From IMG/VR virus record IMGVR_UViG_3300046171_000009, positions 1-27,898 of that record: a DNA stretch of 27,898 bases, one strand, 5' to 3'. Numbering within the stretch: the stretch's first letter is position 1; every line of letters begins with the position of its first letter. Under the pieces are notes generated by a model. It had not been told where the DNA came from. It saw only the letters and a list, made by a program, of their open reading frames with translations, and searched no databases. Of the stretch, positions 2,770 through 27,898 are shown piece by piece. A program made the position numbers and the translations under genes. Source of the DNA: a virus.

Positions 2770-2900
2770 TTTCTATCAAAATAATTATCCAGGTAATCTC
2801 TTCTTTCACTACATCCACAATCATCTCCCCAAATCTTTTTTACGATCCACTGAATACCTACAGCTTTAAAGATCTTCTCTAGTAAAGTCCCTACTTTCAT
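2766..2900 (-). CDS. Small DCGC-motif protein (44 aa)
   Basis: The ATG at 2900-2898 lies inside the last 35 nt of the sigma-like gene in another frame. The product starts MKVGTLLEKIFKAVGIQWIV and then carries DDCGCSERRDYLD. A hydrophobic helix followed by DCGC and a basic patch is a recurring small protein in Bacteroidetes phages as I remember it; function unknown. The ATGA overlap with the next gene supports translation. Confidence 0.6.
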   Translation of the reverse strand: MKVGTLLEKIFKAVGIQWIVKKIWGDDCGCSERRDYLDNYFDRK

Positions 2901-5662: not shown

Positions 5663-5694
5663 CAAAAGTATATAAAATTTTGTTAATAAACAAA
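5663..5694 (-). promoter_or_regulatory. Bacteroidetes-type promoter (TTTG-N20-TAnnTTTG)
   Basis: On the minus strand TTTG (5694-5691) is followed after 20 nt by TACTTTTG (5670-5663), matching the known Bacteroidetes consensus TTTG ... TAnnTTTG. Transcription would begin near 5655, giving a short leader to the ATG at 5640. It lies just after a terminator, as expected for the promoter of a new operon using the host sigma factor. An inverted copy of the leader box TGATAACAA occurs at 5742-5750 on the plus strand. Confidence 0.7.
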
Positions 5695-6181: not shown

Positions 6182-6246
6182 AAACAAATATAATTCTAAA
6201 GTTTTAAAAAATAAATTTGGAAATTAAAAAGTATTTCTTTTTTTTA

Positions 6247-13973: not shown

Positions 13974-13984
13974 TAATATAACGT
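13974..13984 (-). promoter_or_regulatory. ACGTTATATTA box, candidate late promoter
   Basis: This exact 11-mer ends 2 nt before the ATG of the gene at 13621-13971 and lies just after a terminator, where a new transcript must start. The same or a one-base variant box occurs before three other structural genes. An A-rich patch (CAAAA) about 12 nt upstream recurs. With so short a distance to the ATG, transcripts may be leaderless. Confidence 0.6.
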
Positions 13985-14008
13985 ACTAAAACTAAATTTT
14001 GTAGTATC

Positions 14009-14038
14009 AAAAAAAGGGATACCTAAAGATACCCCTTT
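14009..14038 (-). terminator. Rho-independent terminator after major tail protein
   Basis: On the minus strand AAAGGGGTATC and GGTATCCCTTT pair over 11 bp (with two G-U pairs) around a TTTA loop, then a run of T. It lies about 22 nt after the stop of the major tail protein and immediately before the box at 13974-13984. Confidence 0.85.
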
Positions 14039-14060
14039 CTTATATAAAACCAACTAAAAA

Positions 14061-14582
14061 TTACGGATTAATTTGTGTAGTGCTAATTTCTGCCTCAAAA
14101 GCAGTTGCATCTACAAAATAAGCTGGTAGCGTTTCTTGAGCAGCCATAGTTAAAGTGAATCCACTTAAATCTGCCATTCCAGCTCCAGTTACTATTGTAC
14201 CTCCAGAGCAGTCTGCTCCGTGAGAAGCACCTACCATAAGGTAATTACCATTATAATCTTTTATTACTATATGCGGTCTAGCCTTTACTATAAGAATTAG
14301 TTCCTCTTGAGTAGCTTTATCTAATTTAGTTAAAGTTAAATTTAGAGTCTGCTCATAAAAAGCAGTTCCATTTTCTCTAGATGCTGTGATAGTTTGTTCT
14401 AAGCTAGAATTACCTTTTACATCAAACTCAAAGAAATCTGGACTTCCTGCAAAAGCAGTAACTTCTCCAGCAGTAACTGTTAAAGCTCCCATAGTTCCAA
14501 AGTCTGCAAAGTAAACCGCTTGAATACCACCAACGCTATCCTTGCAAGGTACTGTTCTTCCTGTTGTTAAATTACAAGCCAT
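14061..14582 (-). CDS. Major tail (tube) protein
   Basis: The 173-aa protein begins MACNLTTGRTVPCKDSVGGI and contains FFEFDVKGNSSLEQTI, SRENGTAFYEQTLNLTLTKL and ARPHIVIKDYNGN, then GTIVTGAGMADLSGFTLTM. These match the tail-tube protein family I know in Bacteroidetes siphoviruses. It would stack in hexameric rings around the tape measure to form the tail. It sits alone between two strong terminators directly after the capsid gene, as expected for a highly expressed gene. I find no ACGTTATATTA box before it, so it may rely on read-through or an unseen promoter. Confidence 0.85.
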   Translation of the reverse strand: MACNLTTGRTVPCKDSVGGIQAVYFADFGTMGALTVTAGEVTAFAGSPDFFEFDVKGNSSLEQTITASRENGTAFYEQTLNLTLTKLDKATQEELILIVKARPHIVIKDYNGNYLMVGASHGADCSGGTIVTGAGMADLSGFTLTMAAQETLPAYFVDATAFEAEISTTQINP

Positions 14583-14596
14583 TATTTATTTTTTTT

Positions 14597-14638
14597 AAAA
14601 AAAAAAGGTAGGTAAGACTATTGCAAACCTACCCTTTT
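14597..14638 (-). terminator. Rho-independent terminator after major capsid gene
   Basis: On the minus strand GGTAGGT and ACCTACC form a perfect 7-bp stem, extended by flanking A-T and G-U pairs, around a 13-nt loop, followed by ten T. It lies 21 nt after the capsid stop codon and 14 nt before the start of the major tail protein, so it probably tunes the ratio of the two. Confidence 0.85.
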
Positions 14639-14659
14639 AATATGTTAAACTATTTTTTA

Positions 14660-15640
14660 TTATGCTAAAGTAAGTAGTGTACAATCAGATCCAATTCCGT
14701 ATTGTACTCCAGAAGTAAATCGCATTACGACTCTAACATTTTGATCTCCTAATACTGCAGAAGTATCAATCAACTTAACTTCATTATGATCTGATAATAA
14801 ACCAGTACCAAAATATAAGTTAGAAGCCTCAGCAGCTACAATATGATCTGAAGGCATACCTGGACATTGCTGTATTTTGATTCCTTCAAAAGCTAAAGCA
14901 TTACCTTGATTATACCATTGTGATCCTTTGTTGTCTGTACCAGCAGCTCCTAATCCTTGAGCACCAAATCCACCTAAAGCTCTAACGTAAGCTTGTAAAG
15001 CTACAGTAGGTACATATAAAGTTAAATCTTCTTTACCATATACAGCAGAAGGAATAGCATCTACTACATTTCCTAATAATGTTACTATATTATCTGAAGT
15101 AAAGGAAGTTGCAGAAGCATTAGCAGCATCATTTACATCTCCATCTGCAGCCATAAGCACAGTAAAGCCATCAAATTCTCCAGCATTAGCGTTTACACCA
15201 CCCCAAATATTTTGCTCAGTTTTCTCAGCTACTTTAGCAGCTACCTGTCCGATTAAGTAATCAGAGAAAGCTGGAGGTAAGTTATCAAATGTACTCATAC
15301 CCATAGAAATAGCTTCCCAGTCGCTTCTGTAATCTTTTTTACATAATTGTAAATTTACTTGAAATTCCTCTGGTTGTAGGATTCTTTCAGTAAGAGTTAA
15401 TGTATCAGCATCAAAATCGAAATCGCAAGTAGCATCTGCAATAATACTTCCTACTGCTAATTTCTTAACGACTTCTTTGTACTTTACATTAGGCTTAATA
15501 GTGATAGCTCCATCATTAAGAGTCTTACCACTTAATAAAGCTGCAGAGATGTACTTTCCAGCAAATTCCCCAGCGTAAGTTGTTGTGATCGGATCAGTCA
15601 TTGAATTGTCTGCATCCGCAAAATTAAATCTTTTTTTCAT
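14660..15640 (-). CDS. Major capsid protein (HK97-fold type)
   Basis: The 326-aa protein has the features of Bacteroidetes phage capsid proteins: a short N-terminus (MKKRFNFADADNSMTDPITT), a middle block with DYRSDWEAISMGMSTFDNLP and AFSDYLIGQVAAKVAEKTEQ, and a C-terminal block with GIKIQQCPGMPSDHIVAAE, NLYFGTG and VRVVMRFTSGVQYGIG. Length and order fit the HK97 fold without a long scaffold domain. A separate acidic coiled-coil protein precedes it and probably acts as scaffold. A strong terminator follows. The call is firm by context and pattern. Confidence 0.9.
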   Translation of the reverse strand: MKKRFNFADADNSMTDPITTTYAGEFAGKYISAALLSGKTLNDGAITIKPNVKYKEVVKKLAVGSIIADATCDFDFDADTLTLTERILQPEEFQVNLQLCKKDYRSDWEAISMGMSTFDNLPPAFSDYLIGQVAAKVAEKTEQNIWGGVNANAGEFDGFTVLMAADGDVNDAANASATSFTSDNIVTLLGNVVDAIPSAVYGKEDLTLYVPTVALQAYVRALGGFGAQGLGAAGTDNKGSQWYNQGNALAFEGIKIQQCPGMPSDHIVAAEASNLYFGTGLLSDHNEVKLIDTSAVLGDQNVRVVMRFTSGVQYGIGSDCTLLTLA

Positions 15641-15647
15641 TTTATTA

Positions 15648-16244
15648 TTATTTGTTTAATTGTCTTAATACTCTATCTAGAGTAGTTTCTTTTCTGTTTT
15701 GTGAGAATTTAATCTCTTGTCTTTTAGAGGCTTTTCTCTCTGGAGAGTGCTTGAACTTTTTGCTCATTTCTTCTTTCTTCTCCTCTTTTTTCTTTTCCTC
15801 TTCTTCTTCTTTTTTCTCGTAAGAATCTTCAAACTTCTTTTTAAGTTTTTTCAATTCCTCTTTTACTTCCTCTAAAGCTGGTGCTACCACCTCTACTACT
15901 GCTTCTACAATAGCTTCTACTTCTGGAGCTACTTCTTCTGGTACTTCAGTTTCGATAACTTCTTCTTCAGCTTCTACTGCTACTGGCTCTTCTGCTGGAG
16001 CTTCTGATTCTCCGATAGAAGCAATTACCCCTTCTTCCTCTACAATTAAAGAACGTCCATCCTCTAATTTGTATTCTCCGATAGGTAAAGCTACTCGCTC
16101 ATCATCAGTAACAATAAAAACAGACTGACCAGCCTCAAAAGACTCAGCCTCGATAACTGTACCATTGTCTAAAGTCTGCTGAGCTAATTTTACACTAGCA
16201 TTCAATAGAGCTTTAATCTTAGATAACATCTCTGTCGTTTTCAT
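15648..16244 (-). CDS. Putative capsid scaffold / head assembly protein
   Basis: The 198-aa protein lies 7 nt before the capsid gene, the usual place for a scaffold. Residues 1-78 look like a small beta domain (TLDNGTVIEAESFEAGQSVF, ERVALPIGEYKLEDGRSL). Residues about 80-160 are highly acidic and then alternately charged, with runs of Glu and Lys (EEVKEELKKLKKKFED, KKEEEEEKKKEEKKEE) forming a long coiled coil. The C-terminus is basic (RKASKRQEIKFSQNRK). Charged coiled coil plus basic end is common in scaffolds. The protease upstream would remove it. Confidence 0.65.
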   Translation of the reverse strand: MKTTEMLSKIKALLNASVKLAQQTLDNGTVIEAESFEAGQSVFIVTDDERVALPIGEYKLEDGRSLIVEEEGVIASIGESEAPAEEPVAVEAEEEVIETEVPEEVAPEVEAIVEAVVEVVAPALEEVKEELKKLKKKFEDSYEKKEEEEEKKKEEKKEEMSKKFKHSPERKASKRQEIKFSQNRKETTLDRVLRQLNK

Positions 16245-16269
16245 ATATTTATTATTTATTAATTAATTT

Positions 16270-16710
16270 TTATAAAAAATCGTTATTCCCAGTTACGTTT
16301 ATAGTATCTCTGTATTTTCTTATAAAATCTTGATACATCTCTTTATAGTTACTAAGCATATTTACTATTTCTTCATAACTTGCTATTGATTCAGAAGGAT
16401 CTATACCTAATTCATCTGCCTTAGTTTGAAACTCTGCAACTAAAGATTCCATTCTTTCTCCATATTCTTCTAAACTTCCAGCAGAGCTATTTATAGCCAT
16501 TTCATCTATTTCTAATCTTATATCATTAGTAGCATCATAGTATTTATTTTCTAATTCTTCTAATCTTTCATAACCATAATAAGAAACTAAACTATAAGCT
16601 TCTTCTAAAGAATCATACTCAGACTCTATATCATCTACTATAGATAAATTTACTTTTTTCTTAGTCATTCCCTTAGCAATTCTGCTAAATACTGTTTTTT
16701 TAGTGTTCAT
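16270..16710 (-). CDS. Tandem paralogue 3: coiled-coil head-region protein (146 aa)
   Basis: The protein opens MNTKKTVFSRIAKGMTKKKV and has a long helical body with the motif ADELGIDPSES near residue 97-107. The two genes before it share the same start pattern (T...VFSRL), similar length and a (A)xDLGI(D/N) motif at the same place, so the three are clearly related copies. All are acidic and helical. The place between protease and scaffold suggests a head component or assembly factor. I know similar single proteins in Bacteroidetes phages but no function. Confidence 0.7.
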   Translation of the reverse strand: MNTKKTVFSRIAKGMTKKKVNLSIVDDIESEYDSLEEAYSLVSYYGYERLEELENKYYDATNDIRLEIDEMAINSSAGSLEEYGERMESLVAEFQTKADELGIDPSESIASYEEIVNMLSNYKEMYQDFIRKYRDTINVTGNNDFL

Positions 16711-16712
16711 TT

Positions 16713-17156
16713 TTATCTATTTAATTCGTTTGCTAATTCGTATAACTCGTATAATTCGTTTTGTAGACCTACTACATCAGTAGCAGTATTTTCTGCTTCT
16801 GTAAATTTTTCCTGTCCTAATCTATATGCTTCGCTTTGATCTGCATCTATACCTAAATCACTAGCCATACCTTCAAAAGAACTTAAAGCTTGTTCTAGTC
16901 TATCTCTATTGTCAATGTAGTTTTGTAGTTTTTCTTCTAAAGAATCAAAGTTAGATATAAAAGAATTTGCTGCATCTCTAGCTTGAGATATAATACTTTT
17001 TAACTCAGATTCATTATTTCTTAAATCACTTAAACCAGAATCTAATTCTGAAGCATTTAGACCATCTATTGCAGATTGAATGTCATCAGAAGCTGAAAGC
17101 TCTGACTTAAACTGCTTACCAAATAGTCTACTAAATACTGTGTTTCTAGTACTCAT
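16713..17156 (-). CDS. Tandem paralogue 2: coiled-coil head-region protein (147 aa)
   Basis: The second of three related genes. It starts MSTRNTVFSRLFGKQFKSEL, is almost wholly helical and acidic (SDLRNNESELKSIISQARDA), and carries MASDLGIDADQSEAYR at the position where the others have ADELGIDPSES or AEDLGINPFQF. It stops 2 nt before paralogue 3 and follows paralogue 1 after 1 nt, so the three are one unit. They may form a shared helical assembly. Function is unknown. Confidence 0.7.
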   Translation of the reverse strand: MSTRNTVFSRLFGKQFKSELSASDDIQSAIDGLNASELDSGLSDLRNNESELKSIISQARDAANSFISNFDSLEEKLQNYIDNRDRLEQALSSFEGMASDLGIDADQSEAYRLGQEKFTEAENTATDVVGLQNELYELYELANELNR

Positions 17157-17157
17157 A

Positions 17158-17568
17158 TTATAGTTGTTTCATTGTTTTAGCAACTTCTAAAATTTCATTT
17201 ATATTATCTAAATTACTTTGATAACTTCCAACTGTTACTGTTGCATTAGTATATTCATCAAATTGAAAAGGGTTAATACCTAAATCCTCAGCACTTTGAC
17301 CAAATTCATCTAAAGAATACTCTAAATCTGAAATACTATTTGAAGCAATATCTGCCATATTGATTAAGCCGCTAACTTCATTTTGTAAATCTATATATCT
17401 ATTAACCCAATCAGTCAACATATCATCAAACACTTTAAAGTCCGACTCAGCTCCATTAGTTCTAGTTTCTAAATCTCTAACACCAGCTAAATCTACTTTT
17501 TTCTGCTTACTTAACTTCTTTTTGCTATTCTTAGATAGCTGTGCGTAAATTCTTTCTTGTGTAGTCAT
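17158..17568 (-). CDS. Tandem paralogue 1: coiled-coil head-region protein (136 aa)
   Basis: The first and most diverged of three related genes. It begins MTTQERIYAQLSKNSKKKLS and has a basic N-terminus, then a helical, acidic body with SAEDLGINPFQFDEYTN. An ACGTTATATTA box lies 14 nt before its ATG, so it heads a transcript that should include the other two copies, the scaffold-like gene and the capsid gene. Function is unknown. Confidence 0.7.
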   Translation of the reverse strand: MTTQERIYAQLSKNSKKKLSKQKKVDLAGVRDLETRTNGAESDFKVFDDMLTDWVNRYIDLQNEVSGLINMADIASNSISDLEYSLDEFGQSAEDLGINPFQFDEYTNATVTVGSYQSNLDNINEILEVAKTMKQL

Positions 17569-17582
17569 AATTAGATTTATAA

Positions 17583-17593
17583 TAATATAACGT
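17583..17593 (-). promoter_or_regulatory. ACGTTATATTA box, candidate late promoter
   Basis: An exact copy of the 11-mer lies 14 nt before the ATG of paralogue 1 and is thus the box with the longest leader. A CAAAA patch occurs about 12 nt upstream. It would drive the paralogues, scaffold and capsid. Confidence 0.6.
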
Positions 17594-17615
17594 CTCTATA
17601 ATTTTTTTTGCATTT

Positions 17616-18092
17616 TTAAGCCTTAGCTTGTATAATAAACCACTCAGTTCCATTACACCAGATCTTTAATCCTTCATAAGCTTTATTAATTCTAAAAGCA
17701 CTAGAGCTACCATCTAAATTTTGACCACCTCTAGGAGTTAGATCTGCGTGGGTAGCAGTACTAAATGTACTATCTGATATTATACGCTTAGTTCTATTAA
17801 GGTTTTTAGCTGCAGTTGCATCTGGTAAAGTTAATTCTACTGTACCATTACCGCCACTCCAACTCAATACAATAAGCTCTGCTTCATCATATACACTATT
17901 GTTTAAATCAATAGTACCACCAGCTACACTTACAGTTAGTGCTGTAGGATCTAAGTGATTTACTACAAAACTTTGTACATTAGTTAAATTAGCTTTTTTA
18001 GTTTCTGAACTTTGAACTATTGCTATCTCTTCAGCACCTGTTATATTTGCTGCTGTTACATTAGTTAAATCTGATATTTTTTTATCTGCCAT
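17616..18092 (-). CDS. Putative capsid decoration / head fibre protein (158 aa)
   Basis: The protein starts MADKKISDLTNVTAANITGA, an opening common to phage fibre and decoration proteins, and continues as a beta-rich domain (LTVSVAGGTIDLNNSVYDEA, GGNGTVELTLPDATAAKNL, GLKIWCNGTEWFIIQAKA). The end resembles the small domain found in head-fibre or tail-fibre proteins. It sits among head genes and shares a TAATG overlap with the preceding gene. Decoration is inferred from place and build. Confidence 0.6.
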   Translation of the reverse strand: MADKKISDLTNVTAANITGAEEIAIVQSSETKKANLTNVQSFVVNHLDPTALTVSVAGGTIDLNNSVYDEAELIVLSWSGGNGTVELTLPDATAAKNLNRTKRIISDSTFSTATHADLTPRGGQNLDGSSSAFRINKAYEGLKIWCNGTEWFIIQAKA

Positions 18093-18310
18093 TATAAAAG
18101 TATTTTTCCGTTATTCTCTTGTAATAAAAAGTCTGTATTTTCCTGTAGAAGAGCTTGACTAGTTGTACCAGTTCTACCAATACCTTGAGCCCATAAGCTA
18201 CCATCACAGCACTTTCTATCATAGGTTAATTGATCTTTACATAAACAGCCTCTGCGACTATTTTTTGGACTTGTTCTACTAGGAGTTTTTTCGTATTTAT
18301 TTTTTCTCAT
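18092..18310 (-). CDS. Small Cys-rich head-region protein (72 aa)
   Basis: The protein begins MRKNKYEKTPSRTSPKNSRR and has the Cys cluster GCLCKDQLTYDRKCCDGSLW (CLC and CC), likely metal-binding or disulphide-linked. It ends with LLQENTDFLLQENNGKILL, a repeat close to the terminal motif of two other proteins in this phage. Small proteins with CLC...KCCDG are common next to head genes in flavobacterial phages in my experience. It overlaps the end of the protease gene by 14 nt. Function is unknown. Confidence 0.65.
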   Translation of the reverse strand: MRKNKYEKTPSRTSPKNSRRGCLCKDQLTYDRKCCDGSLWAQGIGRTGTTSQALLQENTDFLLQENNGKILL

Positions 18311-19208
18311 CTAGTTTTTCTAATTTATTAATTGCCCATTCAATACCAGAAGTACCTCCCCAAGCATCCCACATCAATCCTCCACATCCTTCTGAGTATG
18401 GTACATCTTTATTCTGTTGATGTCTTTTAAAACTAGCCATTCTAGAAATAGTATCTCTGCTAATAGGCTCTTTTTTTGCTAGTTGATTAGCTCTTCTTTT
18501 GCCTACATCAGTACCACAGCTACCCCATCCATTTTTTTTTGCCCATTCTAAAGCTCTATTAGCATTGTTACTAGCAGAATCTGGATAGTCTGTATAAGAT
18601 TCTAGATTTGTTTCTGCTTCTAATATCATTTGTTTAATCTTTAGCAACTCTAATCCAGCCTCTATCTCTTTACTTAATTCTTTTTTCTTAGATTTTTCTA
18701 CAAAATACCCCTCTATAGAGAAGCCTTTTACCTTACCTTCCTTTACAAAATCTTGCCAGACCTCTTCATTAGTAACTTTCATAGTTCCTACCCAAGTTCC
18801 TAAAGGTAAATTCATATCATACATTTGACTTTTATCTTTTACCTCATCTTCAACTATCCAAGACTCTACTAAACAGAGACCAGATAGCTCTAATCTATGC
18901 TCAAATGTAGAATTATTTTGATATCCGTTCATTAAAAACATTTCACTAGCTTTTCTTACAGTTTCTCTAGTAAAATATATGTAATATTCATCATCTCCAT
19001 CTTTTCTATAGATAGTTTTATTAGGAACTAGTAAAGCTCCTGTTAAAAGTCTTTTATCAGTATCTGCTTCTGCTAGTTTATATTCTTTTTGTTGATTAAG
19101 AGCTACAAAGTTTTCTTCTATAGCTGGATGCTCTACAATACTTATTGCATCTATACCAGCAAATAAGCTATCATCCTCTTCCTCTATAATAAGTTCTACT
19201 ATTCTCAT
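18297..19208 (-). CDS. XkdF-like prohead serine protease with C-terminal extra domain
   Basis: Residues about 50-170 match the XkdF / Peptidase_S78_2 fold: LLTGALLVPNKTIYRKDGDD, STFEHR with likely catalytic H104, VESWIVED, LPLGTWVGTMKV, and VKGFSIEGYF with likely nucleophile S164. Such enzymes cut scaffold and capsid proteins during head maturation. Residues about 205-300 form a separate region (YPDSASNNANRALEWAKK, GWGSCGTDVGKRRANQLA, GCGGLMWDAWGGTSGIEWA) found in several Bacteroidetes phage head proteins; its role is unknown. An ACGTTATAATA box lies 2 nt before the ATG. The gene follows the tape measure, not the portal, which is atypical. Confidence 0.8.
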   Translation of the reverse strand: MRIVELIIEEEDDSLFAGIDAISIVEHPAIEENFVALNQQKEYKLAEADTDKRLLTGALLVPNKTIYRKDGDDEYYIYFTRETVRKASEMFLMNGYQNNSTFEHRLELSGLCLVESWIVEDEVKDKSQMYDMNLPLGTWVGTMKVTNEEVWQDFVKEGKVKGFSIEGYFVEKSKKKELSKEIEAGLELLKIKQMILEAETNLESYTDYPDSASNNANRALEWAKKNGWGSCGTDVGKRRANQLAKKEPISRDTISRMASFKRHQQNKDVPYSEGCGGLMWDAWGGTSGIEWAINKLEKLDEKK

Positions 19209-19210
19209 AC

Positions 19211-19221
19211 TATTATAACGT
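19211..19221 (-). promoter_or_regulatory. ACGTTATAATA box, candidate late promoter
   Basis: This copy differs by one base from the exact 11-mer and ends 2 nt before the protease ATG, after the tape measure stop. A CAAAA patch lies about 12 nt upstream. It would start the head transcript. Confidence 0.55.
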
Positions 19222-19238
19222 ATTTATTTTATTTTTGG

Positions 19239-21014
19239 TTAAAGTGTAGCACCTTCTACAATATTATTCTGTAAACTCTGAGCAGTTGTAACATCATTAG
19301 CTACTACATAAGCTTGAACTGGCTCTTGTGTTTGTTCCCCTATTGCTTCTGCTAATTGACTTGTTTCTGTAGCTCCTACTATATTAAAACTTGGAGCTTG
19401 TGGAGCTGCTGCTGTTGCAGATCCTACAGATGCTCCTCCACCACCAGAAGATTTTGGAACTTTAGTAGATATAATTTTTTTAACATTAGCAAAACCTACA
19501 GCTCCTGTAGCAATAGCTTGAGCTATAGCATAGCCTGGTATTGATGATTTAGAAAAAGCCTGTAATTGACCAGCAATAGAAGCATAAGTACTAATTAAAG
19601 ATGCAGCTACCGCCATAGCTTTACCAGCAGCAGTTTCTTCTCCTATAATACCACTAACAGACTGTAGCGAATGAGCATATCCCATAGCTGCAGTCATTTT
19701 TTGTTTAAACTCTTCTTCTGATATTTCTACACTTACATCTGCAAGATCTTTTAATAGATCATTCTTTTGCTCAGCAGATAATATTTCATCTGAGTTTATA
19801 GCATCTCTTCTTTGTTGTAGCACTTCTCTTTGCTGATCAAATGTTAAAGTGTCAAACTCTCTATCCAACTCTAGATCCTCAATTTTTTTAGCTTGTGCTT
19901 TTTCTCTGTCTTTTAAAGCGAACTCATCCTTTTTAGCTTGTAATGTTTCATTAAGAGAATCAATAAGCTCTTGACTTAATAGACCATTAGCTAAAGCTTC
20001 AGCCATTAGTTTTTTGTTATGCTCTTCTATTTTTTGTAATTCTAAAGCTCTTGCCTCTTCCTCTGTATTAGCCTCTGCTTCTCTAATTCTATTTTTTAAG
20101 TCTGCTAACCTTTTTTGGTAATCCTCTTCTAGTTTTAACTTTTCATCATTCTCTTTCTTTATCCTATCTTGTTCTTCCTTATTATCTTGCAGAATAAAAC
20201 TATCTCTAGTATTTTTTAGTTTTCTTAATTGTTCCTCAGTTTCATCTATAGTAGCTTGACCTTCTTCTGCAATTTCCTCTGGATCAAATAACATAGATGA
20301 GGTCTTTTCTAAAAACCCTTCTGTTAATGCAGTACCTTCTTCTAAAACTCCTAGTGAAGCTAAACTATTAGTAATACCATCAATTAATCCAGTAATAATT
20401 AATAGAGGTGTAGATAAAAATGCTATTATACCTTTAGCTATACTTTTGTTTCTTTCTGCAGCTTCTATTTGAGATTTTTTCATCTCCTTCTGAGTAAGTA
20501 ACTGAGCTTCTAGGTTTAATATAGTTTCGTTTAATTGTTGCTTCTTAAGATCTCTAATTTCCTTTTCAGTTTTACCTTGAAGCTTTAGAGTATTCTCCAT
20601 TTGACTTATCATCTGTGATTGTTTCTCAGATTCAGCCACAGATTCTTTTTGAGTCTCTAATAGTTTTTTCTGTTCGGAACTTACACCACTTACAAGTCCT
20701 TTAATATCTTCCCAATATGCTACAATCAATCCAAGAGCTACAACTAAAGCACCTATACCAGTTGTTACTAAAGCAGTTCTAAATCCTTTAACACTTTTTA
20801 TTAAACCTCTAAAACCTCCAATACCATCTTTTACTGCTGCCGCTAAATCTTTTACTTTTGTAGCATAACCTCCAGTAGCTTTATCTAAAGCCTTAAATCC
20901 ATCTCTTTGTTTATCCCCAGCAGTAGCAACTTTTCCTAAAGCTATGTTAAGCTCATTAATAGCTTTTACTGCTTTGTCGGTTTTCGCTACTACTTCTACT
21001 TCTGCTGTTTGCAT
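19239..21014 (-). CDS. Tail tape measure protein
   Basis: The 591-aa protein has a tape-measure build: an N-terminal helical region (EVEVVAKTDKAVKAINELNI), hydrophobic segments near 81-100 (ALVTTGIGALVVALGLIVAY) and 194-214, a long charged coiled coil around 270-400 (KKENDEKLKLEEDYQKRLAD and on), and a hydrophobic, Ala/Gly-rich C-terminal part (GKAMAVAASLISTYASIAGQ). It would set tail length and help DNA entry. By the usual rule of about 0.15 nm per residue a tail near 90 nm is expected. The first 19 nt overlap a 47-aa ORF. Confidence 0.9.
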   Translation of the reverse strand: MQTAEVEVVAKTDKAVKAINELNIALGKVATAGDKQRDGFKALDKATGGYATKVKDLAAAVKDGIGGFRGLIKSVKGFRTALVTTGIGALVVALGLIVAYWEDIKGLVSGVSSEQKKLLETQKESVAESEKQSQMISQMENTLKLQGKTEKEIRDLKKQQLNETILNLEAQLLTQKEMKKSQIEAAERNKSIAKGIIAFLSTPLLIITGLIDGITNSLASLGVLEEGTALTEGFLEKTSSMLFDPEEIAEEGQATIDETEEQLRKLKNTRDSFILQDNKEEQDRIKKENDEKLKLEEDYQKRLADLKNRIREAEANTEEEARALELQKIEEHNKKLMAEALANGLLSQELIDSLNETLQAKKDEFALKDREKAQAKKIEDLELDREFDTLTFDQQREVLQQRRDAINSDEILSAEQKNDLLKDLADVSVEISEEEFKQKMTAAMGYAHSLQSVSGIIGEETAAGKAMAVAASLISTYASIAGQLQAFSKSSIPGYAIAQAIATGAVGFANVKKIISTKVPKSSGGGGASVGSATAAAPQAPSFNIVGATETSQLAEAIGEQTQEPVQAYVVANDVTTAQSLQNNIVEGATL

Positions 21015-21139
21015 AATTCTCTTTTAAATTGTTCTATACCTTCTTTAAATGTTTCTGGCATTTTATATTTACCTTTTGCTATGTCTATGTATTTACCTTC
21101 AAAATCATATTCTAAAGCGTATAATATATCTCTTATCAT
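20996..21139 (-). CDS. Small protein upstream of tape measure (47 aa)
   Basis: The ATG at 21139-21137 lies 1 nt after the stop of the large tail protein, and the frame ends within the tape-measure gene. The product begins MIRDILYALEYDFEGKYIDI and continues KYKMPETFKEGIEQFKRE. The place suggests a tail-assembly accessory. Tight spacing on both sides supports it as real. Confidence 0.6.
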   Translation of the reverse strand: MIRDILYALEYDFEGKYIDIAKGKYKMPETFKEGIEQFKRELCKQQK

Positions 21140-21140
21140 C

Positions 21141-23744
21141 TTATTCTAATATTATATTGTCATTTTGCTCTGTTATAAGTGTATCTCCATTTTCTGCTAG
21201 TGCTACAGGATCTTGATCTGTAGTACCATAAACTATAGTATCATTAGAAAATACAATATTACTTCCAATAGTGTACCTTACTCTAATTGCAAACTTATAA
21301 GTTATGTTACTTTCTAAACCTGTTACTTTCTTAGATACAGTTGTATTTGCTAAAGTTTCAGAAAATGTATCATCTATATATAAATCATAGCCTGTAATAT
21401 TATTACCTACAGGATCAGCTAAAGCAGTCCACTCTATAGTGATAAAATCATTACTTTTAACAGTAACACTTAAACTTGCTAATCTAGGTAGACTTGCTGT
21501 CTGATCGTTTTCTACTCCTGTTATAGCCTGTGATAAACTATATAACTCTAAAGAGCTTTTATTGTTTAATAGGTTTGTTTTTATATTATTGATTCTATAT
21601 GTCTTATTACCTATTATAAACTTATCATTTAAATTATACTTTAATATAATATGTAGAGGTAAGTAAGCATCTAGTTTATTTATTCTACCCTGTCTATTAA
21701 ATACACTTGCTATGTAATCTAAATAGTATTTCTCTAGTAAGTTTGTACCTTTAGGCTCTAGAAAAAACTCATCATTTTCTATACCATAGTTTAAAGAACT
21801 AGAAGCATCTAATACTGTACCTCCAGACTGCACTAAAATTTGGCTAGGTCTGTTATAAGCTGATATAGTTTCATCTGATCCTCCATCTGCATTAGCAAAT
21901 AAAAAAGTAGGAGTAGCAGTTTGATTTACTATATACAACAATAAAGGATTACCTATTGTAGGATTAAAATCTTTGTCTAGCATAGCACCTTGACAAATAG
22001 TAGTAGAAGTACCTAAAGCCTCATCCGATAATCTTTCATAAAGCATTTTTTCAAATACAGGCTCTATCTTATAGTCTGTACCATCCCATTCTACATCTCC
22101 ATAATTTTCTCCAGCAAAATTAGATCCCTGTAGCTCATCTGATTTTTCTACTAAAAAACTCTTTTTGCTTGGAAAGTTAAAATCTATGTTTTTATATTGT
22201 AATACTTTGCTTATACTGTTTTTGCTTGTATCTACATATTTAGTAATATCATAATTTAAACCCTCTTCATAGTAATCATTTAAAGGTACTACTCTAATTG
22301 TATTGTCTACCTTGTAAGCTACTAAATTAAACATCTTAAACAAGTTAGTTAAGAAGTCAATAGCTTTCATCTTAGGCATATGTCTACCTATTACTACTGT
22401 ATTAGCTAGTGAGAAAGAATCACTTTCATAAGTACATTGCAAAATTCCGTTTAAACTTGCATCTATTTCGTAATCTACAATATTAAATGTATTTGTTGAT
22501 GTAAGTATTAATCTAACATTAGCCGTAGCATAATAACCTACAGGAACTGTAAATGTATAAGACGTACTGCCTGTATTACCTGTGCTTTCAGTAAGTGTAT
22601 CTCCCCAATATCCGTGTTCAGCTCTAAAATCAAATTCATCAGTTGTTGCTGAGGTTGTAATTCTAATATTTAGTGCTGCAAATTGACCATTTAAACCAAG
22701 TATATCTGGAGGTGTACCTGTTAAAGGTCTGGCCTCATCTCCAGTACCAGGAACAATAGTTAAACCCTCATCAGTAGGCAAGTGAAATAAAGTCTCTAAT
22801 ATAGTTAAACCTCCACCTTCATCTGCATTACTCATAAATCCTTTCTCTCTGTGCATCCACATATAGATACTATTAAAGTCTACACTATTAAAGAACTCCC
22901 CTGTAAAGGTAATCTCATCAAAAGTATTTTGTATAGCATCTATTATCTTTCTTATTTTTATAGCTGGTTTTAAATCTCTGTAGTTTAGCTTCTCTCCAGC
23001 TACTGGAGTATTTGACTCATAAGCACCATTATTATATCTCATATTTTTAGTATGAGTTATTAAAGGAAAACATATATCTCCTAAAGAAGTAAACATAGGA
23101 AATATAGTAGCGTGATCATAAGCAAAGTTTAAACTTGAGTCATAGTTAAGACCACTTAGCATTGTTTCTCCTAATACATCTTTTAGCTCTACAGTTTCTC
23201 CAAAGAATATTAATTTATAAGCGTGAGGTTTATTATTTTTTAGTGATACACTATTTAATCTAATCTTTCCTTTTTTATAGTCTGATCCATTTAGCTTTAT
23301 TAAAGCATCTGCTTTATATCTAGCATCAAAACTATTTAATATATCGCTATCCTCATAATGTCTTATTATTTTAGAATTATGTTTAGAAGCTGGTATATTA
23401 AACTCTTGAGAAAAAGGAGTAAAGATCTTAGCTACATCTTTTACGTTTTTTATAGAATCTGTTATACTTACACTTTCATCCTCAAATAAATCTAACCTAT
23501 TATAATCACTCATAACTAAGTAAGGCTCATTGACTAAAAATATATCATCTGATAAACCTAGAGTAGTAGCAGAAACAGAAGTAACTTTTGCTGAGGTATT
23601 ATTAGCTTCATTAAAAGCTATATAGCCTACCTTTACAGTATTTGTAAAATCTGCATTTGCATCTACTAAGTTATTAGTTGAGCTAGAGGTAGCATTACCA
23701 TAATATCTAATACCATCTCTTATGTATAATTCTATAATTTGCAT
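21141..23744 (-). CDS. Large tail protein with C-terminal fibronectin III domain
   Basis: The 867-aa protein resembles a large minor tail protein that I know from flavobacterial phages: an N-terminal region with LDLFEDESVSITDSIKNVKD and FTPFSQEFNIPASKHN, a middle rich in beta strands, MKAIDFLTNLFKMFNLVAYK near residues 460-480 (a tail-hub-like motif), and LNDKFIIGNKTYRINNIKTN near 720. Residues about 750-845 form a fibronectin type III domain (TIEWTALADP, ITGYDLYIDD, TYKFAIRVRY). The very end, LAENGDTLITEQNDNIILE, recurs in a small fibre-region protein. It is probably the tail hub or central tip. The precise role is inferred. Confidence 0.75.
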   Translation of the reverse strand: MQIIELYIRDGIRYYGNATSSSTNNLVDANADFTNTVKVGYIAFNEANNTSAKVTSVSATTLGLSDDIFLVNEPYLVMSDYNRLDLFEDESVSITDSIKNVKDVAKIFTPFSQEFNIPASKHNSKIIRHYEDSDILNSFDARYKADALIKLNGSDYKKGKIRLNSVSLKNNKPHAYKLIFFGETVELKDVLGETMLSGLNYDSSLNFAYDHATIFPMFTSLGDICFPLITHTKNMRYNNGAYESNTPVAGEKLNYRDLKPAIKIRKIIDAIQNTFDEITFTGEFFNSVDFNSIYMWMHREKGFMSNADEGGGLTILETLFHLPTDEGLTIVPGTGDEARPLTGTPPDILGLNGQFAALNIRITTSATTDEFDFRAEHGYWGDTLTESTGNTGSTSYTFTVPVGYYATANVRLILTSTNTFNIVDYEIDASLNGILQCTYESDSFSLANTVVIGRHMPKMKAIDFLTNLFKMFNLVAYKVDNTIRVVPLNDYYEEGLNYDITKYVDTSKNSISKVLQYKNIDFNFPSKKSFLVEKSDELQGSNFAGENYGDVEWDGTDYKIEPVFEKMLYERLSDEALGTSTTICQGAMLDKDFNPTIGNPLLLYIVNQTATPTFLFANADGGSDETISAYNRPSQILVQSGGTVLDASSSLNYGIENDEFFLEPKGTNLLEKYYLDYIASVFNRQGRINKLDAYLPLHIILKYNLNDKFIIGNKTYRINNIKTNLLNNKSSLELYSLSQAITGVENDQTASLPRLASLSVTVKSNDFITIEWTALADPVGNNITGYDLYIDDTFSETLANTTVSKKVTGLESNITYKFAIRVRYTIGSNIVFSNDTIVYGTTDQDPVALAENGDTLITEQNDNIILE

Positions 23745-24880
23745 TAGCGAATATTGTTTATAGTATCAAAAGCAAAATCTATCTCTATTGTATAGTTTAT
23801 TAATTTGTCGTTTAAGTGAGTTTTATATGTCAAACTGCTTCCACTTACATTTACAGGAAGTGTTTGAGAGTTAATCTCTATCCAACAATCCTCACTAAGT
23901 TGCATCTCTTTAAATACATCATTATAAGACTCTGGATAATAACCAGTGTTTAAAGTTAGTTTCTCATTACCATTTTTAGTAAATATTTTATTTTGATGGT
24001 TACTTATATTGTAAGATCCTCCACTTATTATATTTCTTTTAAAGCTATCTTTTGTAGTAGATAAAACTTCATTAGTTCTTTTAAAAAACCATATATCCTG
24101 GAGGCTGCCAAACTTATTAGTAAATGTAATTTTTAAAGGATCGTATTTACACTCCTCTATATTATCTACAATTAATTTAGTAACTCCTGTTGAGGTCTCT
24201 ACAAAAATAGTATCAAAGTCAAATAAAGTAAATTCATTAGTAAACTCATCTAAACAGCTACTACCCTCAAAAGTGCCTCCATCCTGTATTACTCTATCCT
24301 CATATTCATCTGATCCGTTTATTCCGTTTGTAACGTATTCTATTTGCTCATCACTTTCTGTGCTACTACTTACTGCCTTAGTATATACTTGAGTTCCATT
24401 AAGCTGGTAAGTAACTTGAGTAGTTAGTGATGTATCTACAGCTATAGTAGCTGGAGCATCATCTAGTTTTACTATTTTAGTATTGGTTTGTAATAATCCT
24501 GTATTATTTTCTGGATTAGCTCCTTGCTCAAAAAACCCATAACCATAAAAACCTTTTAGCTGTGTAAAGCTACTTGTAGGCTGTATTGTTACTTGATGTG
24601 TTTCAGTAGTTCTATAATCTACCCATTGTATCTCAGTTGCATAATTTCCATCAAAACTATTAGTAAAGTAATCTTTAACTAATTCTGATATTTCAAAAAC
24701 ACATTCATTATCGACTGCAAATGATTCTAGTATATAGGTAGCTGTAGTAGGTCTATCGTTGTTAGTTGCTCCTACTCCTCTTGTACCTGTATATATAAAC
24801 AATTCTAATTGGCAGCTAGTTAAGTTTGTTACTGTGCCAGTTGTTATATAATATGGACTTCTTACGTTTAATTTGCTCAT
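23744..24880 (-). CDS. Minor tail protein, distal-tail-like (378 aa)
   Basis: The protein is beta-rich with aromatic and Thr/Ser-rich stretches: MSKLNVRSPYYITTGTVTNL, VFEISELVKDYFTNSFDG, FYGYGFFEQGANPE, then DIWFFKRTNEVLSTTKDSF and TLNTGYYPESYNDVFKEMQL. I know this pattern as a structural protein next to the large tail protein in Bacteroidetes phages. A role at the distal tail is inferred from its neighbours; the fold is not clear to me. It shares TAATG with the gene after it and ATGA with the gene before it. Confidence 0.65.
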   Translation of the reverse strand: MSKLNVRSPYYITTGTVTNLTSCQLELFIYTGTRGVGATNNDRPTTATYILESFAVDNECVFEISELVKDYFTNSFDGNYATEIQWVDYRTTETHQVTIQPTSSFTQLKGFYGYGFFEQGANPENNTGLLQTNTKIVKLDDAPATIAVDTSLTTQVTYQLNGTQVYTKAVSSSTESDEQIEYVTNGINGSDEYEDRVIQDGGTFEGSSCLDEFTNEFTLFDFDTIFVETSTGVTKLIVDNIEECKYDPLKITFTNKFGSLQDIWFFKRTNEVLSTTKDSFKRNIISGGSYNISNHQNKIFTKNGNEKLTLNTGYYPESYNDVFKEMQLSEDCWIEINSQTLPVNVSGSSLTYKTHLNDKLINYTIEIDFAFDTINNIR

Positions 24881-25446
24881 TTTTTATTTATACTAATTTC
24901 TATATCTTTTTCTACATCTAATTTTAATCCTTCCTCTAGCTTATATGGTATCTGTTGCTGTGCATACTCAAAAGCATTAGTGAAAAACATAGTAGGTCTC
25001 AAACCTCTGTTATATATGTTACCAGCAATAATCTTACCTATTGTCTCATATGTACCTCTAACAAATCTACCTTGTTCGTCTCTTAATCTATAATTTTTAT
25101 TCTTTGCCCAATCTGCTACACTCAATGCAAAATCATCAAATGTCCCAGCCATATTACCACTACCAAACTCATAAGGACTATTTGGTGCTTGTTGTTCTTT
25201 TATTGCTTTATCTCCTCCTCTTACTTTACTAGGATCTTTACCCTTAACACCTTTATCCTGGAACTTACCATAATCTTCCATTAGGATTTGAAAGTATAAT
25301 CCTCTAGTATCTTTCTCTATAACAGTACCCTGTATGCTATCATATAATTTACCAACAATACCTTCATTAGCTAGATTCTTTTTTGATTCTTGTACAATTA
25401 AGTCTCTAACCTCTTCTAGATATTTTATTAAATTATCGTTAATCAC
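24877..25446 (-). CDS. HK97 gp10-like tail completion protein (189 aa)
   Basis: The signatures of the HK97 gp10 family are present: ILMEDYGKFQDKGVKGK near residue 55-70 and GLRPTMFFTNAFEYAQQQ near 147-164, with a helical N-terminus (YLEEVRDLIVQESKK). Such proteins sit at the neck or tail end and complete head-tail joining. The start is GTG at 25446, which overlaps the previous stop; a TAG lies just upstream in frame and no ATG is available until residue 56, so GTG is well supported. Confidence 0.75.
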   Translation of the reverse strand: MINDNLIKYLEEVRDLIVQESKKNLANEGIVGKLYDSIQGTVIEKDTRGLYFQILMEDYGKFQDKGVKGKDPSKVRGGDKAIKEQQAPNSPYEFGSGNMAGTFDDFALSVADWAKNKNYRLRDEQGRFVRGTYETIGKIIAGNIYNRGLRPTMFFTNAFEYAQQQIPYKLEEGLKLDVEKDIEISINKK

Positions 25447-25921
25447 AGATATCTATATTATTCATTACCACTAAAGAAAACGTAGCAGACCAACCAGCTA
25501 ATTCGTTTTCAAACCTATCTTTAAAAGCTTGTAAGTTAGATGTACCTTCTAATTGATAACCATCTCTATGAGTAGTACCTTTTCTTAGTTCTTGTATAAA
25601 CTTATTAAGTACAGCTAATTGAGTGTTTAATACATCCATCTCATTATTGTTTCCTCTAAAGATATCTTGAGTTTCTTCTTTGTTTATGTCTACTAAATCC
25701 ATAGCTAAGATGCTAAAGTTAAAAGTCATAGTTTGACCATTTTCTGTAACGTTGTTTAGCATTATATGACATAAGGGAAATATATCTTGTTTGTTTAGAT
25801 TTACTTGAGTTATATCTCCTCTAGTTACTGTATTAACATTTACATCTGTTAGTAGTAAATCCTTTAGAGTATCCATTACATCATAGTAAGCTATTGCTCC
25901 TCTGTGTGTTATTGCTGTCAT
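25439..25921 (-). CDS. Tail terminator-like structural protein (160 aa)
   Basis: The protein opens MTAITHRGAIAYYDVMDTLK and has DIFPLCHIMLNNVTENG, TFNFSILAMDLVDINKEET, then GNNNEMDVLNTQLAVLNKFI and NELAGWSATFSLVVMNNIDI. The alpha/beta build with a strand of hydrophobic residues at each end is like tail terminator proteins that cap the tail tube beneath the connector. It is followed by the gp10-like gene, a usual neighbour. The call is by pattern and context. Its ATG overlaps the TGA of the 40-aa membrane ORF. Confidence 0.6.
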   Translation of the reverse strand: MTAITHRGAIAYYDVMDTLKDLLLTDVNVNTVTRGDITQVNLNKQDIFPLCHIMLNNVTENGQTMTFNFSILAMDLVDINKEETQDIFRGNNNEMDVLNTQLAVLNKFIQELRKGTTHRDGYQLEGTSNLQAFKDRFENELAGWSATFSLVVMNNIDICD

Positions 25922-26040
25922 TTAATTCTTTTTTCTTTTAACGTTCCCTTTACTACTAATAAACTAATAAGTATAATAGTGAAGATATTAGGATGTCCCT
26001 CTCCACAGAAACCTAATATGTGATTAATACTATCTATCAT
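25918..26040 (-). CDS. Small membrane protein in tail module (40 aa)
   Basis: The ATG at 26040-26038 overlaps the TGA of the chaperone extension, and the stop overlaps the next ATG. The product begins MIDSINHILGFCGEGHPNIF and then has one hydrophobic helix (FTIILISLLVVKG) with a basic end (TLKEKRIK). I recall similar HILGFCGE...HPN proteins in flavobacterial phages at the same place. Role unknown; a membrane factor made during late infection. Confidence 0.65.
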   Translation of the reverse strand: MIDSINHILGFCGEGHPNIFTIILISLLVVKGTLKEKRIK

Positions 26041-26294
26041 TTAAAATTCTTTTTTATTCTTCTTCTTTCTAATTCTGCTTTCTCTTTCATAAAAGCTAAA
26101 GCATATAAACACTTATGTAGATTTAGTTTAGTAACCTTATCTACCTTCATTATATTAAATCCGCTAAGTGCTTGTATTGATTGATACCATCCCCATTTAT
26201 TAGAGAAGTTTGATTCAGCACTGAGTCCTCCAGAAGATTCTCCTCCTCCAAATATTTCGTCATAGCTATCGACAATTCTTTCCCTAAATTGTAA
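26037..26294 (-). CDS. -1 frame extension of the tail-assembly chaperone (GT-like, 85 codons)
   Basis: This frame is open from just after a TAG at 26309-26307 to a TGA at 26039-26037. Reading on from the T run by a -1 slip gives LQFRERIVDSYDEIFGGGES, then FSNKWGWYQSIQAL and VTKLNLHKCLYALAFMKEKA, ending in a basic KKNFK. The WGWYQSI..L..LNxHxCLYxLxFxKEKxxLE pattern is one I recognise from the C-terminus of Bacteroidetes phage chaperone-like proteins. The fusion product would be about 251 aa. An ATG at 26150 could also start the last 37 codons alone. If the T run is misread, this is simply the true C-terminus of one gene. Confidence 0.65.
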   Translation of the reverse strand, partial: LQFRERIVDSYDEIFGGGESSGGLSAESNFSNKWGWYQSIQALSGFNIMKVDKVTKLNLHKCLYALAFMKEKAELERRRIKKNFK

Positions 26295-26791
26295 AAAAAA
26301 AGCATACTACTTACTACTGCATCCATTGGAGTATGTATCATAGCATCATAATACAGATCCCCTTTATATTCTTCAATTAGATACTTATCTTTTATTTTTT
26401 GTTTAACTGGTCTATATAGAACAGCCATTGCTTTATACATATTGTCCCAGCTTCCTAAATTAGAATCTAGATCTACATACTCTCCAAAGGTCATATCATC
26501 TAGCTTAGGTATAAAACCAAACTCAGTATCTCCTAACTTAAATGTCTTTACTAATTCTGGTTTCTGATTAAGAGTGTTAGTAATTGTTCCTACTACCTTT
26601 CTTACATCACTCATCTTATATTCTACTGCTTCTATTAGTGGAACTCCACAAAAGATATCTAGTGTTTTCTGATGAACAAAGACATCGCTATAGTCATCAT
26701 CTTGATTAACTTCTAATACTTTCAGATACTTAACATAGTCTGATAGCTTTATCTCTCCTAATTCTGTAGGTACATTTAGTTTGATCTTCAT
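26150..26791 (-). CDS. Tail-assembly chaperone, short form (G-like, 213 aa)
   Basis: The 213-aa protein begins MKIKLNVPTELGEIKLSDYV and has FCGVPLIEAVEY, a beta pair (FKLGDTEFGFIPKLDDMTFG), EYVDLDSNLGSWDNMYKAMA, VLYRPVKQK and IEEYKGDLYYDAMIHTPMD. This matches proteins I know as tail-assembly chaperone candidates in Bacteroidetes phages. It ends in frame with FFYNLGKELSIAMTKYLEEE and NGDGINQYKHLADLI. Near codon 165 lies a run of nine T where a -1 slip would produce a longer form. Lambda G/GT-type chaperones use the same trick and coat the tape measure before tail assembly. An ACGTTATATTA box lies 2 nt before the ATG. Confidence 0.7.
   Translation of the reverse strand: MKIKLNVPTELGEIKLSDYVKYLKVLEVNQDDDYSDVFVHQKTLDIFCGVPLIEAVEYKMSDVRKVVGTITNTLNQKPELVKTFKLGDTEFGFIPKLDDMTFGEYVDLDSNLGSWDNMYKAMAVLYRPVKQKIKDKYLIEEYKGDLYYDAMIHTPMDAVVSSMLFFYNLGKELSIAMTKYLEEENLLEDSVLNQTSLINGDGINQYKHLADLI
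26293..26301 (-). other. Poly-T9 slippery site, candidate -1 ribosomal frameshift
   Basis: The chaperone frame reads CTT TTT TTT TAC here, so T TTT TTT is a canonical X XXY YYZ heptamer. Slipping one base back continues as TTA CAA TTT into an 85-codon open frame. A weak inverted repeat (ACAATT / AATTGT, 26292-26287 and 26277-26272) follows directly, closer than the usual spacer, so its role as a stimulator is doubtful. Confidence 0.65.
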
Positions 26792-26793
26792 AA

Positions 26794-26804
26794 TAATATA
26801 ACGT
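26794..26804 (-). promoter_or_regulatory. ACGTTATATTA box, candidate late promoter
   Basis: An exact copy of the 11-mer ends 2 nt before the ATG of the chaperone gene, in the 27-nt gap after the terminase. It would start transcription of the tail module. Confidence 0.6.
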
Positions 26805-26818
26805 AAAATTTATTAGTT

Positions 26819-27400
26819 TTAACGAATTGCATACTTACCAAAGTTTACTTTACTCATAATAGAATAAGTACTATACCTAGTCGCATCAATAAGATGATCG
26901 TTCTTTGGCTCTGGTTGGTTAGTAAGCTTTCCGCTTTTATCTTCTTTCCATTTGTAATCTCTAAACTCCTGTATAGCGTGATGGCTATCTTTAGTTATGT
27001 TTAGTTTATATCTCTTAAGTAAATCTATTCCAGCATTAATAGAGTCTTTACCTTTTACACTAGGTCTTATATTCCAACCCATTCTTCTTAGCTCTTCATT
27101 TAGTCTAGGCTCTGCAGAGTCTGCATAGATTAGCTCTTTGTTAATTCCTAAGTCTTTTAGCTTATGATGGATATCTCTTCCTGTCATCATAGTTTGGTAG
27201 ATACATTCTTTTATGTATAGCTCATAATCTTTTTTCCATACTCCTACCATAGCTGTAGGATCATTAGTATATCCGTAGTCAAGTCCATAACTTACAAGCT
27301 CTGCATCTGCTGGTATGTTATCAGTTTCATAGTATTTGAATATAGTTGCTTTACTATATCCTCTCTGCCCTAGTCCATAGATTCCTCCAGTAGTGCTCAT
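26819..27400 (-). CDS. terL: Terminase large subunit, C-terminal (nuclease) fragment
   Basis: The frame holds the RNase H-like nuclease of TerL with the expected acidic residues: YGLDYGYTNDPTAMVGVW, ELIYADSAEPR and the final LIDATRYSTYS. It also has IYGLGQRGYSKATIFKYY at its start, the linker region that in intact relatives continues from the ATPase domain. Its nominal start (ATG 27400) is not a real start: the codons before it in another frame encode IEEIERLKQTDEHYWR, which clearly belongs to the same protein. Removing one base near 27381-27388 joins the frames. TerL cuts and pumps DNA into the head. Confidence 0.85.
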   Translation of the reverse strand: MSTTGGIYGLGQRGYSKATIFKYYETDNIPADAELVSYGLDYGYTNDPTAMVGVWKKDYELYIKECIYQTMMTGRDIHHKLKDLGINKELIYADSAEPRLNEELRRMGWNIRPSVKGKDSINAGIDLLKRYKLNITKDSHHAIQEFRDYKWKEDKSGKLTNQPEPKNDHLIDATRYSTYSIMSKVNFGKYAIR

Positions 27401-27507
27401 CTGTTTGTTTAAGTCTCTCTATCTCTTCTATTATACTTGTATCTAGAAACTTATTATCTAAGTATGTAGTTTTAAAGAACTCTACATCTTCTCTAGGTAT
27501 TACCTTA

Positions 27508-27898
27508 TCATATATCCAGTGATAGAAAGTCAGAAGGATTAAAGTCTATTACTATCTTTTCTGTTGTTCTAAATACTAACTGCTGCCAGTCCTCATAGTC
27601 TAACTCATTAGCCTCATTAATAAACAGGAACTCTCTTTTACGACCTCTAATCTTTTGTGGCTGATCTACACTAATAAACTCTACTAGATTCCCATTTAGA
27701 TCGTATTCACTATTACTTTTATTGTGATTCCCCTCAGCATACTTATTATGTATTTTAAGTATATCTATAAAGTCTCTCATTACTGAGGATCTTAAAGCTG
27801 GGAATGTCTTTCTACATATAGTGATAGTCTTACCAGTATTTACCTGGCAGTAGTGGAATATAATAAAGAGCAAAATGTTATAAGTCTTTCCAGATCTT
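27508..27898 (-). CDS. terL: Terminase large subunit, N-terminal (ATPase) fragment, 5' partial
   Basis: The frame is open to the window edge and starts inside the Walker A motif (RSGKTYNILL at the edge). It has KTFPALRSSVMRDFIDIL, a Walker B of the form REFLFINEANEL (Asn-Glu in place of Asp-Glu, as usual in this group), and the motif III region IVIDFNPSD. It then hits a TGA after a frame change at the AAA run 27526-27528; removing one base continues FYHWIYDKVIPREDVEFFKT into the middle frame (27401-27530). Packaging ATPase of the terminase. Without the lost base the protein would stop before the nuclease. Confidence 0.85.
   Translation of the reverse strand, partial: RSGKTYNILLFIIFHYCQVNTGKTITICRKTFPALRSSVMRDFIDILKIHNKYAEGNHNKSNSEYDLNGNLVEFISVDQPQKIRGRKREFLFINEANELDYEDWQQLVFRTTEKIVIDFNPSDFLSLDI

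Follow-up and report, generated by a model that had tools for sequence, protein, structure and literature searches.

A conserved box ahead of the structural genes of an uncultured phage is a candidate late promoter for a phage-encoded sigma factor

In the present analysis, we describe a short box that recurs ahead of the structural genes in a 27,898-nucleotide stretch of viral DNA (IMG/VR record IMGVR_UViG_3300046171_000009, positions 1 to 27,898; the window), and we argue from its sequence context and conservation that it very probably serves as the late promoter of this marine flavobacterial phage. All evident genes of the window lie on the minus strand, which is thus the gene strand, and so do three exact intergenic copies of the box, ACGTTATATTA, and a fourth copy with one mismatch, ACGTTATAATA; a search of the window for an exact copy on the plus strand found none. 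A sequence-only reading of this DNA had placed these boxes before structural genes, 2 nucleotides (nt) from the ATG in three cases and 14 nt in the fourth, and both the copies and the distances were recovered (ATGs at 13971, 26791, and 19208, and at 17568, respectively). The A-rich patch that it had noticed about 12 nt upstream also recurs, and the full motif around the boxes reads CAAAA-N12-ACGTTATAnnAnn-A(+1). The sites are as follows:

26794 to 26804, minus strand: late box, exact ACGTTATATTA, 2 nt before the ATG at 26791; predicted +1 at 26791
26817 to 26821, minus strand: upstream A-rich element TAAAA, 12 nt before the 26794 box
19211 to 19221, minus strand: late box with one mismatch, ACGTTATAATA, 2 nt before the ATG at 19208 (gene for an XkdF-like protease); predicted +1 at 19208
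19233 to 19237, minus strand: upstream element CAAAA, 11 nt before the 19211 box
17583 to 17593, minus strand: late box, exact, 14 nt before the ATG at 17568, heading the block with the scaffold-like and capsid genes; the +1 predicted at 17580 gives a leader of 12 nt
17606 to 17610, minus strand: upstream element CAAAA, 12 nt before the 17583 box
13974 to 13984, minus strand: late box, exact, 2 nt before the ATG at 13971, heading the portal block; predicted +1 at 13971
13997 to 14001, minus strand: upstream element CAAAA, 12 nt before the 13974 box

In the model that we favor, to which we assign as a whole a probability of about 0.8, the box would be the -10-like half of a bipartite late promoter, bound by the host core RNA polymerase together with an extracytoplasmic function (ECF)-type sigma factor that the phage encodes at 2866 to 3402. 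Transcription would start at an A, 13 nt downstream of the box's first base; in three of the four window cases this A also opens the start codon, and late mRNAs would be leaderless there, with a 12-nt leader for the capsid block. The host sigma factor would first transcribe the sigma operon from promoters of the TTTG/TANNTTTG type, and the phage sigma would then switch on the structural genes.

The conservation of the box was followed in related viral contigs gathered through the capsid protein (80 contigs) and through the sigma-like protein (44 contigs), in which boxes were read upstream of homologous start codons. Before gene 13971, after the terminator that precedes it, the sequence ACGTTATATTAGT-ATG is common to the close relatives (with ACGTTATAATA in one of them), and a CAAAA-like element lies some 12 nt upstream; pairwise identity is 0.98 in the box versus 0.49 in the spacer. 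The box likewise stands at matching positions before the XkdF gene (the 19211 site, kept in L008, L141, L142, L143, and L145), before gene 26791 (the 26794 site, kept in L086, L091, L093, L096, L099, L100, L101, L103, and L106), and before the block headed by 17568 (the 17583 site, kept in L005, L007, L008, L141, and L142), so the motif search in related phages that had been suggested came out in its favor. Across relatives the A-rich element and the box are constant, and the spacer and flanks drift. L086, L091, and L099 have one more box site ahead of a different gene; it lies on the upstream side of the 26791 homolog, past the right end of the window. In the clade with about 42% sigma identity, a box with its +1 A lies 5-6 nt before the ATG of a gene that was not recognised and whose start sequence is conserved (L120 8893, L113 6207, L116 6938, L117 4323, L122 9519, L124 9046, and L125 10963); no counterpart of this site was seen in the window.

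One of the boxes had been said to follow a strong terminator, which holds for the portal block, and one copy to fall inside a gene, which was also found:

about 14010 to 14041, minus strand: intrinsic terminator, hairpin and T-run (-16.1 kcal/mol, z -4.2), just upstream of the predicted promoter at 13974
3229 to 3239, minus strand: exact box inside the sigma-like gene, over the conserved codons Y-V-I-L

A simple terminator scan did not pick up the 14010-14041 hairpin. The ATG at 13971 is likely the start of the lead gene of the portal block, the listed open reading frame (ORF) start at 14010 being an upstream TTG. The copy at 3229 was rejected as a promoter and left out of the promoter count as a coding coincidence of its Y-V-I-L codons; box copies ending the gene-13971 homologs in L038, L047, and L055 were rejected on the same ground (YVIL codons).

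The motif is specific to the phage family of the window. The pattern CAAAA-N12-ACGTTATA-nnAnn-ATG was scanned over 2.9 million viral contigs with no homology input, and among the matches listed (119 contigs), 115 of the 119 encode homologs of window proteins, 124 of the 127 motif sites precede an ORF of at least 40 amino acids, and the contigs hold 77 further intergenic motif sites. A control with the reversed box over the whole collection gave 23 contigs, with one related, two with an ORF, and no additional sites; the enrichment over this control is at least as large as these figures indicate.

Some points weigh against the promoter reading, and the first of them come from the window's own statistics. 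On the gene strand the exact box occurs four times against 0.008 expected (1,000 dinucleotide shuffles; largest shuffle count 1); at two mismatches, however, the window shows no excess (22 seen vs. 21.7 expected), and two other 11-mers are also present four times. Because of the missing excess we do not rely on these statistics: by itself the window is only suggestive evidence for the box, and it is the relatives that decide. The same two points could be taken to mean that the box is a chance repeat in an AT-rich genome, or a repeat that serves replication or packaging and not transcription, an idea that we find barely credible since it is contradicted by the conservation of orthologous sites and by the family-specific scan with its control.

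The position of the putative start site was approached through CGTTAT sites picked by two criteria only, namely that they fall outside any long ORF and that an ORF starts 12-44 nt downstream (n = 63). AAA is found 12-15 nt upstream at 61 of these 63 intergenic sites versus 31 of 98 other copies, and the +1 position is A at all 26 sites without an adjacent ATG versus 49 of 98 other copies; the sites share descent, so that the counts are not independent and p values cannot be taken at face value, which also tells against us. A few of the 63 entries are unlikely to be promoters, for example the GCGTTATGCC site in L142. An A that keeps its distance from a -10-like element, irrespective of where the start codon falls, has the appearance of a transcription start. 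Because this A is invariant where no ATG is adjacent, we infer that transcripts are likely leaderless at three of the four window sites.

It could be asked whether the box is instead a Kozak-like context of the start codon that acts in translation and is no promoter. Its A residues at -3, -6, and -13 from the ATG do agree with positions that favor initiation in F. johnsoniae (-3, -6, -12, and -13; PMC6847099). However, the box and its +1 A are kept where the ATG lies 2-26 nt further downstream, and because the +1 base stays A at all 26 such sites, the box is not a start-codon context. Moreover, its C, G, and T positions are conserved as well as its A positions, the fixed upstream A-rich element would be left unexplained, and boxes of class D (see below) have no A at -3. 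We regard a role in translation alone as very improbable.

The same layout is present in a cultured relative, the Nonlabens phage P12024S (host Nonlabens (Persicivirga) sp. IMCC12024), whose capsid is 26% identical to that of the window. A pattern search located boxes of the form CGTTA(A/C)T and AAAACAAA-like elements ahead of six of its genes (ATGs at 179, 3031, 5412, 23961, 25201, and 26802), the ATG being spaced from the box as in the window, and gave no site on the other strand; a seventh late site, before gene 35 (start 21280), was read by eye. Gene 33 of this phage carries a sigma70 region 2 annotation, and its product can be aligned to the family's sigma profile (hhalign probability 94.8, E 5e-8).

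The candidate reader of the boxes in the window is encoded as follows:

2866 to 3402, minus strand: sigma-like protein, 178 amino acids, ECF type (regions 2 and 4)

This ORF matches PHROG 1740 (RNA polymerase sigma factor; E 6e-4), and an alignment shows that its relatives share a region-2-like core, GCNIDTAKDxVQE, and a C-terminal helix-turn-helix. An AlphaFold model reached moderate confidence (predicted local distance difference test score 72, predicted template modeling score 0.38), and in it the fold comprises sigma region 2 and region 4 and no other sigma regions, as in ECF sigma factors. These also make up its leading Foldseek matches in the PDB, with SigL the best (E 3e-4), then SigH, RpoE, and SigW. 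Among 19 family members, Pfam Sigma70_r2 gave weak matches in six (E 0.0044 or weaker), and the Pfam matches listed for these members include no region-4 model. A tblastn search with the window sigma covered 50,697 phage records and gave no match at E 0.1, and a search of bacterial genomes with the sigma-like protein returned no relative. The assignment leans on weak sequence matches and a model of moderate confidence, which belongs with the points on the other side of the balance. We nevertheless consider it likely that the boxes are read by the phage's own sigma factor.

Host-type promoters in the window stand elsewhere than the boxes:

5663 to 5694, minus strand: host-type promoter TTTG-N20-TACTTTTG, ahead of the operon that runs from 5640 and contains the sigma gene; a like sequence lies at the matching place in L147
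5770 to 5801, minus strand: second host-type promoter, TTTG-N20-TANNTTTG, upstream of the sigma operon
6185 to 6215, minus strand: host-type promoter with one mismatch, before a NinG-like gene

The promoters at 5663 and 5770, both before the sigma operon, are the only exact TTTG-N20-TANNTTTG promoters in the window, and no exact or one-mismatch host-type promoter was found there at the heads of the structural operons. A generic sigma70 promoter scan of the window was uninformative (64 found vs. 77 expected). It is conceivable, if unlikely, that the host primary sigma factor reads the box as a degenerate TANNTTTG with no phage sigma involved, for TATATTAG, within the box plus GT, is one fixed base off that element, as is the class B sequence TACTTTAG. 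In F. johnsoniae, however, a gap of 4-5 nt separates the end of the -7 element from the start site (PMC6847099). If +1 is placed at the conserved A, the box matches one of the host element's six fixed bases, and in the TATATTAG register the gap is 1 nt. The CG of the box is invariant in close relatives, yet has no role in the host element, and the exact host promoters of the window are placed elsewhere. The earlier view that the box is unlike the host element is thus borne out in the host register.

A different phage factor might also read the box, either an activator that binds DNA or an RNA polymerase of the phage whose gene lies beyond the window. Phages do use activators and polymerases of their own, the window covers a fragment, and it is we who draw the link between sigma and box; against this, the complete, annotated 35.7-kb genome of P12024S has seven such sites and no annotated RNA polymerase, and a constant spacing to +1 and a layout in two parts belong to promoters that a sigma factor reads. 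We consider such a factor improbable. The relatives and P12024S, the spacing of the A-rich element, and the +1 A are best read as first proposed, by a late promoter specific to the phage whose transcripts would be leaderless or nearly so.

Among relatives, the box occurs in four classes, A (CGTTATA), B (TTACTTT), C (TTATTAT), and D (GTTATCC), which usually share a core TTA at an equal distance from +1 and have the start codon at +1; at one class D site the start codon is apparently GTG, and class B sites before XkdF fit the layout less well. The sequence-only reading had named related phages with the same genes and no such box as evidence against it. Phages of this kind exist (classes B, C, and D); they carry, however, a different box at the same place and a sigma of a different clade. 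Twenty genomes hold both the sigma and the late genes, and in a sigma tree of 19 of these with P12024S each class forms one clade, with four changes, the minimum. In class A sigma proteins, region 2 ends with a basic patch, KR.E, which those of classes B-D lack; four more phages found by the motif alone combine similar patches (CRKE, KRKE, and RKQ) with the ACGTTATA box. Compared with cultured phages by tblastn, the sigma proteins of classes C and D gave no match.

These data suggest coevolution of sigma and box, and only suggest it, because the classes are tracked as closely by the divergence of portal and XkdF as by sigma, and because only one change separates the capsid tree from the minimum. 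The former point is adverse to our proposal in that sigma and box may be linked through shared descent alone. The discordance between capsid and sigma, tried as proof of coevolution, was weakened: by identity it looks strong (area under the curve of 0.49 for the capsid), but the capsid tree needs only the one extra change, and portal and XkdF follow the box no less well than sigma. At 14660-15640, the window capsid protein is 75-81% identical to those of class B-D phages and only 54-62% to those of several phages of its own class, values that point to capsid gene exchange. As a tentative proposal, to which we give somewhat less than even odds, this Bacteroidota phage family may run its structural program largely on sigma-made leaderless mRNAs, in contrast to the mostly leadered mRNAs of the host, and its sigma and promoter may have drifted together into at least four specificities with the promoter positions and the +1 base held fixed. 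If true, the family would be a natural set of cases from which to learn how the specificity of ECF sigma factors shifts.

Promoters of this general kind are familiar from other phages, among which phiEco32 and 7-11, with their late sigma factors, come closest to the present case. The T4 late promoter, TATAAATA, is read with sigma gp55, and T4 late transcription is coupled to the replication clamp. T4 resembles the window phage in having a short AT-rich box before late genes that is read through a small phage sigma, and differs in that its late promoter is not known to have an upstream element. The ECF-type late sigma gp47 of phage 7-11 uses promoters GTAAtg-(16)-aCTA with the start 6-9 bp from the element (PMC8948821), and middle and late promoters of phiEco32, read by sigma gp36, contain tAATGTAtA (PMC4281155, PMC8948821). 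The two sigma proteins are only 15% identical, and the two phages keep similar promoter positions with differing motifs (PMC8948821). A shared element before several late operons is common to these phages and that of the window. As in 7-11, the model combines a small phage sigma, the host core polymerase, and a bipartite promoter before late genes; unlike 7-11, which has an enterobacterial host, the sequences and spacing are others, and leaderless starts are not mentioned in PMC8948821. As in phiEco32, a phage sigma of the ECF type would turn on middle and late genes by way of a short AT-rich element, with 6-8 nt between this element and the start; unlike the window motif, the phiEco32 promoter is a single element of unrelated sequence without an upstream half, its sigma works with gp79, and its host belongs to another phylum. 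In the tblastn search of phage records, the window sigma had no detectable sequence homology to gp36 or gp47, and the likeness would be one of mechanism and not of demonstrated kinship.

The primary promoter of Bacteroidota is TTTG/TANNTTTG (PMC6847099), and this is the same host phylum as far as P12024S and the early promoters of the window indicate; read in the host register, in which TANNTTTG ends 4-5 nt before +1, the late box does not match this promoter. Leaders longer than 10 nt occur in 87% of those F. johnsoniae transcripts that have a probable promoter (PMC6847099), and because most host transcripts are leadered, the leaderless placement at most late sites would be unusual. Our literature search returned the phiEco32 and 7-11 precedents and nothing on flavobacterial phage promoters; no account of a late-gene promoter code in flavobacterial siphophages, which are common marine viruses, turned up in it. 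If our proposal is right, the rule of CAAAA, 12-14 nt, a CGTTA box, and +1 at position 14 (often the start codon) would predict late operons in many uncultured genomes and point to their regulator, and it would supply natural sigma/promoter pairs for Bacteroidota together with a case of systematic leaderless late mRNA. The same layout in P12024S makes the idea testable now in a cultured phage-host pair.

Some further features of the window were noted. The gene for the terminase large subunit is split by frame changes at 27390-27530 on the minus strand and is in one frame in relative L143; sequencing error and real damage cannot be told apart here. A strong intrinsic terminator at 14602-14638 on the minus strand (-15 kcal/mol, z -3.7) lies between the capsid gene and gene 14582 with no box between them, and a G/C hairpin with a T-run occupies this position in all relatives read; it may be leaky and set the ratio of the capsid and gene-14582 proteins. 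At 16270-17568, the adjacent genes 17568, 17156, and 16710, of similar size and with alike N-termini (TRNTVFSRL, TKKTVFSRI, and TQERIYAQL), look like a small tandem family, the first member of which is preceded by the late box.

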